From Pleurocapsa minor GSE-CHR-MK 17-07R (lineage in GTDB: Bacteria > Chloroflexota > Anaerolineae > Aggregatilineales > Phototrophicaceae), in assembly GCA_019359125.1 (NCBI GenBank), contig JAHHHY010000001.1:310001-374000 (forward strand): a DNA stretch of 64,000 nucleotides, written 5' to 3'. A program made the position numbers and the translations under genes. The notes below the pieces were generated by a model that saw only the letters and a program-made list of their open reading frames with translations, did no database searches and had not been told where the DNA came from. Positions 18,294 through 19,446 of this stretch are shown here, piece after piece. Positions within the stretch are counted from its first letter, which is position 1. Each line of letters opens with the position of its first letter.

Positions 18294-18761
18294 CTACTCG
18301 GCGTCTCCACCGGGCAGGGTGTAATCACGGTTGCGCAGTTCGCGCTTCACATCCGCGAGCACCTTCTGGCCGATGCCGTCGATGTCGAGGATGGCCTGGT
18401 CGCCACCCTGTTCGAGGCGGGCGATGAAGTCACCCGCGGTGACGACGCCAGCTTCAACCAGGATGTTCAGATGACGCTTGTTCAGGCCGATTTCGGCAAG
18501 CTGGAGATTCTCCGGCTTGGACGATTCGATCTTGCTGGTGGCAGCGGCGATCTTCTGGTCACGAACCTGGAGGCGCTTGATGAAGCGGTCCACCTGGCCT
18601 TCGGTGTCGATGATGCGCTGTTCGCCGGTGTAGAAAGGATGGCAGCGCGAGCAGATATCGGTCTTGATGGTCGCCTGGGTGGCGCCGGTGACCCACGAGT
18701 TACCGCAGGCACAGGTCACAACTGCTTCAGGAAACCATGCTGGATGCAGATCAGTCTTCAT
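18294..18761 (-). CDS. rpmE: Ribosomal protein L31 with C-terminal alphaCTD-like domain
   Basis: Residues 1-75 of this 155-residue protein are zinc-type bacterial L31: C17-x-C19 and C37-x2-C40 ligands, HPFYTGEQRIIDTEGQVDRF signature. Residues 88-142 are extra and read LAEIGLNKRHLNILVEAG ... ILDIDGIGQKVLADVKREL, closely resembling the helix-hairpin-helix C-terminal domain of RNA polymerase alpha. Normal L31 is about 70-90 residues. ATG 18761 has AGAGGA upstream; an earlier in-frame start would add 8 residues. It follows rplU and rpmA in one operon. The added domain could bind nucleic acid or a transcription partner; its role is unknown. Confidence 0.9.
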   Translation of the reverse strand: MKTDLHPAWFPEAVVTCACGNSWVTGATQATIKTDICSRCHPFYTGEQRIIDTEGQVDRFIKRLQVRDQKIAAATSKIESSKPENLQLAEIGLNKRHLNILVEAGVVTAGDFIARLEQGGDQAILDIDGIGQKVLADVKRELRNRDYTLPGGDAE

Positions 18762-18818
18762 TGAGGTCCTCTCGTCTCCATACAACGCGTCGCTGTATGG
18801 TACTGAGCGTAAACGAAA

Positions 18819-19103
18819 CTAGTTACGAACAGCGGGTGTCGGATTTTCCGCGTACACGCTGATTTGCTGACGGCCGTTCTTGCCGGGAGCGTACTCGAAA
18901 ACGACGTACCCTTCCTGGACGGCGAAAATGGTGTAATCCTTACCCATATCCACGTTTTTGCCGGGGTGGAACTGGGTGCCGCGCTGGCGAACGATGATGT
19001 TGCCAGGGATGACGTGCTGGCCGCCAAAACGCTTTACGCCCAGGCGCTGCGAATTGCTATCGCGACCGTTACGGCTGGAACCGCCACCTTTTTTGTGAGC
19101 CAT
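18819..19103 (-). CDS. rpmA: 50S ribosomal protein L27
   Basis: This 94-residue protein begins [20 protein letters not shown], the canonical L27 N-terminus that reaches the peptidyl transferase centre, followed by [21 protein letters not shown]. No Firmicutes-type cleavable N-terminal extension is present at this start. GGAGAAGAG lies upstream of ATG 19103. It sits between L21 and L31, as in many bacteria for the L21-L27 pair. Confidence 0.97.
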
Positions 19104-19134: not shown

Positions 19135-19446
19135 CTAGGCGTTGATTGCTTCGATACGAATACGGGTGTAGTAGTGACGATGACCGCGCTTGCGGCGGAA
19201 CTTCGTGCGCTGACGGTACTTGAAGACAATGACCTTCTTGGCGCGGAACTGATCGATAACCACGGCTGTCACCACGGCGCCTTCGACGTTCGGCTGGCCG
19301 ACAACAGTTTTGCTGTCGTCACCGACGAGAAGCACATCCTTGATTTCAATCGTGTCATTGACGGCGTTGGGCATGCGCTCGACATCGATGAGCTTGCCCA
19401 CTTCGGCGCGATACTGGCGCCCGCCGGTGCGGATGATGGCGTACAT
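19135..19446 (-). CDS. rplU: 50S ribosomal protein L21
   Basis: This 103-residue protein has the L21 start [20 protein letters not shown] and the C-terminal [21 protein letters not shown]. It binds 23S rRNA near L20. It is the first gene of the rplU-rpmA-rpmE operon. A consensus-like promoter lies at 19564-19592, giving a leader of about 110 bases, long enough for autoregulation, though no known L21 leader structure was identified. Confidence 0.97.

Follow-up and report, generated by a model that had tools for sequence, protein, structure and literature searches.

An alphaCTD-like domain fused to zinc-type ribosomal protein L31 in Anaerolineae

In the class Anaerolineae of the Chloroflexota, ribosomal protein L31 can carry a C-terminal extension that is a homologue of the C-terminal domain of the RNA polymerase alpha subunit (alphaCTD) and forms a conserved, folded domain. 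The domain is termed alphaCTD-like here, not alphaCTD, and the fused gene that is described in the following is encoded in a stretch of 64,000 nucleotides of an Anaerolineae genome that is called the window (Table 1). Within the class, the fusion is frequent in some families and absent from many.

Table 1. Positions in the window of the fused L31 gene, its parts and its neighbourhood
Feature	Position	Strand	Extent or basis
L31 (rpmE-like) gene: bL31, helical linker, alphaCTD-like domain	18294..18761	minus	155 aa + stop
Zinc-type bL31 body, residues 1-64	18570..18761	minus	profile matches and alignment
Linker, residues 65-82	18516..18569	minus	AlphaFold2 model; less conserved than either domain
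alphaCTD-like HhH domain, residues 83-150 (68 residues)	18312..18515	minus	profiles and predicted fold
Shine-Dalgarno-like GAGAGG	18768..18773	minus	read by eye; 6 nt 5' of the ATG at 18761
Terminator-like hairpin 3' of the L31 gene	18242..18274	minus	consensus match only
bL27 gene, upstream, same direction	18819..19103	minus	NCBIfam L27, 1.6e-36
bL21 gene, 103 aa, upstream, same direction	19135..19446	minus	NCBIfam L21, 3.5e-31

A first-pass annotation of the window had described a complete zinc-type L31 in an unbroken frame, and in both respects it was right. On translation the frame has no internal stop over its full length, and a search of the genome returned the fused gene as the sole L31 match. 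Residues 1-64 match the Pfam family Ribosomal_L31 (PF01197) with 2.8e-25 and 88.7 bits at a cut-off of 27, the fused protein is also above the cut-off of the NCBIfam L31 model NF000612 (88.1 bits, cut-off 70), and the A-type zinc cysteines C17, C19, C37 and C40 are invariant in the window's protein and 80 relatives (81/81). The linker lies mostly within a continuous helix (residues 56-81) in the AlphaFold2 prediction. Downstream of L31 follows a thymidine kinase gene. Of the normal terminator that had been claimed for the operon, a hairpin of 14 pairs with a T-run is indeed present behind the L31 stop, but the pattern match is no better than chance, with one such match found and 1.8 expected in shuffled sequences.

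Taken alone, the match of the window's extension to the alphaCTD family of Pfam (RNA_pol_A_CTD, PF03118) is marginal, with 6.7e-4 and 19.8 bits for the extension and 0.0035 and 17.5 bits for the whole fused protein, both below the curated cut-off of 23.8 bits, which is why the kinship with alphaCTD has to be settled by the profile of the relatives. The profile check that had been proposed for the extension thus stays below threshold for the single sequence, but it succeeds with a profile of 81 modules (the window's and those of the 80 relatives), which was run against PDB sequences and found the alphaCTD of T. thermophilus (1doq) as best match with 4.2e-11. Among the 49 PDB matches below 0.001, 48 are RNA polymerase chains, alpha by name in all but one, and the remaining one is a helicase, so that the resemblance to alphaCTD noted from the letters of the window has held up. 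The repeats AR1 and AR2 of NusA are similar to alphaCTD, and with regard to a kinship to those of E. coli, no NusA chain is found among these 49 matches. The NCBIfam rpoA model matches the extension with 2e-5, and two related L31 fusions exceed the cut-off of PF03118 even when scanned singly (L171 with 33.7 bits, L172 with 25.8 bits); a third one, L169, has no PF03118 match below 0.01, yet its module is detected by the module profile. A separate rpoA in the same genome encodes an alphaCTD of its own (77.9 bits), and the module described here sits on L31 and not on alpha. The comparison with this rpoA, which had also been proposed, shows 20 of 67 residues to be identical, and as no L31 row stands among the RpoA rows in the module tree, a recent copy of the genome's own rpoA is ruled out.

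The reading of the extension would have fallen if it were unstructured and not conserved in relatives, but AlphaFold2 predicts a confident domain, and this domain is kept in all 81 sequences. Modelled alone, it has a pLDDT of 86.8 and a pTM of 0.68. For the whole fused protein these values are 81.2 and 0.44, and a pTM of 0.44 means that the model is silent on where the module sits. In the structure comparison of the domain alone, alphaCTD ranks first with a Z score of 10.4 and an rmsd of 1.2 A over 60 aligned residues, and with the whole model the first 29 of 50 rows of VIA-align are RNA polymerase entries (Z 10.2-8.9; alpha chain by residue range). Foldseek gives a weaker signal than the structure alignment, with a best E value of 0.011 for the domain alone, where the first 22 rows are RNA polymerase; with the whole model, L31 chains come on top and 1doq follows at rank 48 with 7.4e-3. 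HhH domains of RAD51 and Dmc1 come behind alphaCTD in the structure comparison, with Z scores of up to 9.0. The specificity for alphaCTD comes from the sequence evidence, and the kinship is closer to alphaCTD than to HhH domains in general. Across the 81 relatives, the L31 body is the best conserved part (mean share of the majority residue 0.81), followed by the module (0.61) and the linker (0.48).

In the structural alignment, residues 83-150 of the window's protein pair with residues 252-315 of E. coli alpha (68 and 64 residues), and counted from the ends of the alignment, R96 corresponds to R265, G131 to G296 and K133 to K298. Together with N268, N294 and S299, these are what we take to be the DNA-binding positions of the E. 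coli alphaCTD. Three of the counterparts are well kept in the L31 modules (R265 in 70/81, with Q replacing R96 in eight modules, G296 in 81/81 and K298 in 75/81). At the other three, all 26 RpoA rows of the class have N, N and S, whereas in the L31 modules position 129 (N294) is G in 79/81, position 99 (N268) is N in only 20/81, and the counterpart of S299 is S in 36/81. The L31 modules have basic positions of their own, namely K139 and a K or R at 140 (each in 81/81) and R143 (77/81), and K139 is, like G131, invariant across many families. Position 140 is E or D in 69% of the 26 RpoA rows of the class. K133, K139, K140 and R143 fall into a sector of about 120 degrees of an ideal helix wheel, and R132 is common (70/81), with Q at this place in the window's sequence. 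The pattern fits a nucleic-acid face that may have drifted from promoter recognition. Overall, the module is not a strongly basic domain, its mean net charge being close to neutral (-0.65, n=81; RpoA domains of the class -1.23), and net charge is therefore a weak argument for rRNA binding. The earlier suggestion that the extension could connect the ribosome with transcription or with a further RNA goes beyond these results; the DNA-binding positions of alphaCTD are only partly kept.

The relatives were collected from one genome per species, and the best 80 of 548 were used together with the window; all of these carry the extension in proteins of 150-172 residues, and as the query included the extension, the best 80 of 548 say nothing on prevalence. 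The best match among them, L002, belongs to the Anaerolineae, which points to this class for the window as well, a record titled Anaerolinea thermophila (L070) also carries the fusion, and the record titles of 79 of the 80 carry what we take to be names of Chloroflexota. The exception, L013, is titled Bacteroidetes, and it is likely a mislabelled bin, since its module hardly differs from the one in the Chloroflexi record L019. Prevalence was estimated by searching 400 genomes of the phylum with a profile that covers the full fusion, where a match reaching at least position 145 was counted as fusion. Within the window's class, 40 of 55 genomes have the fusion, and in the remaining 15 the profile covers only L31 and a short tail. 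In a reading of 15 of 30 loci, the stop within the matched span of two fusions (G397 and G387) was located behind the module, after residue 153 and 151 respectively, where the gene ends. Among the best 150 rows listed in this search, no fusion was found in another class; a candidate from another class, G053, matches profile positions 2-134 but has a stop directly after L31 and no domain behind it. The survey of L31 lengths that had been called for thus gives fused proteins in 40 of 55 class genomes, and with the fusion at the loci of 80 relatives as well, an assembly artefact is ruled out, as the unbroken frame had already led the first-pass annotation to assume.

A second sample was balanced by family and comprised 60 genomes of the class, 59 of which have an L31 by search. 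The module follows L31 in the same frame in ten of the 59, one of which (G441) is cut by the contig end, and in the other 49 no module overlaps L31. An eleventh pair of neighbouring L31 and module matches, in G403, is no fusion of L31, as the module belongs to L21. In two families of the class there are L31s without the zinc cysteines (L222 in G037, L223 in G152 and L232 in G144), and the one of G144 keeps the module.

The same 60 genomes were searched with the module profile, which found modules on several proteins besides RpoA, and part of the ORFs found were scanned with PF03118. On NusA, the module is found behind the KH part in 14 fetched ORFs (L157-L161, L163-L165, L167, L168, L176-L179; two modules in tandem in L158), seven of them by Pfam, with PF03118 above cut-off, and all by similarity to one. 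Six RpoC ORFs carry it (L166:3537-8147, L183:3204-7634 and L184-L187), inside the domain Rpb1_3 in both that were scanned with Pfam. A C-terminal module behind a linker is present on S16 in three genomes (L156 and L151 in G403, L173 in G429, L190 in G128; 18.3 bits to PF03118 and thus below cut-off in L190), the sample having S16 matches in 58 of 60 genomes, and on L21 in one genome (L170:1664-2275 in G403, 51.8 bits), where the fused L21 gene is close to an unfused L31 on the same contig. Modules were also seen inside a deoxynucleoside kinase (L193:772-1878 in G417), behind an HTH_3 domain (L162:619-1137 in G402) and, with three occurrences, in two proteins with sigma region 4 and HARE-HTH (L180:1292-3538 in G409 and, by similarity, L191 in G408), and there are weak matches at L174, L181 and L182. 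In the window's own genome, the module profile at 0.01 finds only L31 and RpoA, and PF03118 at E values up to 10 adds one weak match and an ORF of 86 residues, a stand-alone HhH-like frame with 22.8 bits (L113:1414-1671, contig C17).

A tree of the modules (67 columns and 85 rows, with every third of the 81 L31 rows and five others representing L31) resolves few forks. It places 30 of 32 L31 rows in one group (97/78), with L171 and L172 apart, and as a single L31 clade is compatible with the AU test (p 0.478), there may have been one or two fusion events. On L21, the module of G403 falls together with those of S16 from G403 and G429 (92/82), while the S16 module of G128 is placed with those of RpoC, so that S16 probably gained its module twice. 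That S16 and L21 bear kindred modules in other families of the class points to a repeated use of the same trick.

As to the function, the tentative first choice is a nucleic-acid clamp on the head of the 30S subunit that would extend bridge B1b/c. According to PMC7530986 and PMC10931766, bL31 is held by 5S rRNA and uL5 and touches uS13, uS14, uS19 and helix 42 of 16S rRNA with its C-terminal part. As in other bacteria, the zinc part would seat bL31 on the central protuberance of the 50S subunit and the C-terminal part of bL31 would cross to the 30S head, and the long predicted helix (residues 56-81) may then bring the module to the outside of this head. There its basic face (R96, K133, K139, K/R140 and R143) could grip nucleic acid, most likely the head's 16S rRNA, or proteins of the head, and the clamp would strengthen or tune bridge B1b/c and the movement of the head, with the alphaCTD scaffold being reused for binding RNA or ribosome and not for promoter recognition. 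This role is ranked likeliest because the predicted helix runs on from the site of the head contact, and because many of the unfused L31s (n=17) have a basic stretch in their tail at the place of the module (G053 and G137 have none). The homology and fold, the conservation of the module and the basic positions that are specific to the L31 modules count in its favour, as does the relaxation of the promoter-type positions corresponding to N294 and N268. Against it stand the near-neutral net charge, the Q in place of R96 in eight modules, the window's Q at R132 and the low pTM of the whole model. With a view to a compensation for a lost rRNA helix, a 16S match was obtained in 28 of the 60 class genomes, and among the ten with the fusion there is one of full length (G005) and one partial (G410).

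Somewhat less probable than such a clamp is a tether between transcription and translation, in which the module of the leading ribosome would bind NusA, RNA polymerase or upstream DNA and thereby aid coupling. The module is after all an alphaCTD homologue, the class has modules on both machines (NusA and RpoC, S16 and L21), and the E. coli alphaCTD binds to NusA-AR2 and the NusA N-terminal domain according to PMC7171158. But the residues at N268, N294 and S299 that are fixed in RpoA of the class are relaxed in L31, and a search of the window's own NusA found no module above noise. Nor is a module on the other machine significantly tied to the fusion: NusA has one in 5/10 genomes with and 11/50 without the L31 fusion (Fisher p 0.11) and RpoC in 0/10 and 13/50 (p 0.10), both tests ignoring kinship and counting some cases by ORF length only, namely 2 of 16 for NusA (G152, G432) and 7 of 13 for RpoC (G412, G440, G444, G088, G419, G436, G416). 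The S16 module occurs in 0/10 genomes with the L31 module, which for three S16 cases is the chance expectation. Moreover, S16 and L21 are located far from the mRNA entry. It is unlikely that the Anaerolineae use alphaCTD-like modules in general as a shared connector that joins or regulates ribosome and polymerase, a lineage-specific form of expressome in which one type of module was added to RNA polymerase (alpha, beta prime) and NusA and, repeatedly, to different ribosomal proteins (L31, S16, L21).

It is quite unlikely that the module serves protein-protein contacts at the 30S head, where a factor associated with the ribosome or a second ribosome, in dimers, would dock on it. The binding of alphaCTD to NusA (PMC7171158) speaks for it, and so does the report in PMC7530986 that bL31 without its last seven residues is impaired in subunit association and 100S formation, but the conserved surface of the module is basic. 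It is more doubtful still that the module is a near-neutral decoration, grafted by chance at an exposed place, where it was tolerated and kept without a special job. The class genomes and L31-bearing genomes without the fusion (15/55 and 49/59) would agree with this, as would the similar modules taken up at the ends of other ribosomal proteins; the domain is, however, kept across many families, with its two invariant residues and basic positions of its own. Least probable is a binding of RNA outside the ribosome, such as autogenous control of the L31 mRNA: gamma-proteobacterial bL31 sets a precedent in repressing its own mRNA, but through its N-terminal segment and not its C-terminus (PMC10931766), and the present gene lies behind those of L21 and L27 in one direction.

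Among the known systems, alphaCTD itself is the closest, with the agreement in fold, in profile and at R265, G296 and K298 described above, but the module differs from it by its place on L31, by being four residues longer than E. coli alpha in the aligned part, and by the G at N294, the variable N268 and the basic last helix. With zinc-type bL31 (PF01197, TIGR00105) the fused protein shares the body and its four cysteines, but it continues for about 90 residues past the Pfam domain, and the solved L31 chains (the best 60 of 71 matches) are 30-148 residues long, mostly below 100, and none has a best stretch spanning both parts. The extended L21 models PRK12278 (216-223 residues) also describe a ribosomal protein that is extended at its C-terminus, but it is another protein, and the matches of the window's L21 and of the fused one (L170) end at model position 103 and 132, so that they show no kinship between the extensions. 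AR1 and AR2 of NusA are likewise small modules, sitting on a transcription factor and binding alphaCTD among others (PMC7171158), but the E. coli repeats are acidic and non-ribosomal, unlike the near-neutral L31 module with its basic face. The RpoC model PRK14906 is weakly matched by the extension at positions 1316-1370 of 1459 (5.7e-5), but this region is near the C-terminus of beta prime, whereas two Anaerolineae RpoC carry the module inside Rpb1_3. No description of an alphaCTD-like domain on L31, S16 or L21 was found in titles and abstract beginnings of the open-licence papers listed, and in PMC11515920 on insertions in RNA polymerase the terms CTD, HhH and helix-hairpin-helix are absent. 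Extended ribosomal proteins are already known, and the alphaCTD homologue on L31 is new among them.

A module of the transcription machinery is a fixed part of L31 in many bacteria, and it is found in a protein that bridges the ribosomal subunits. This gives a handle on how lineage-specific extensions of the ribosome change subunit dynamics, and on whether the coupling of transcription and translation uses links besides NusG and uS10.
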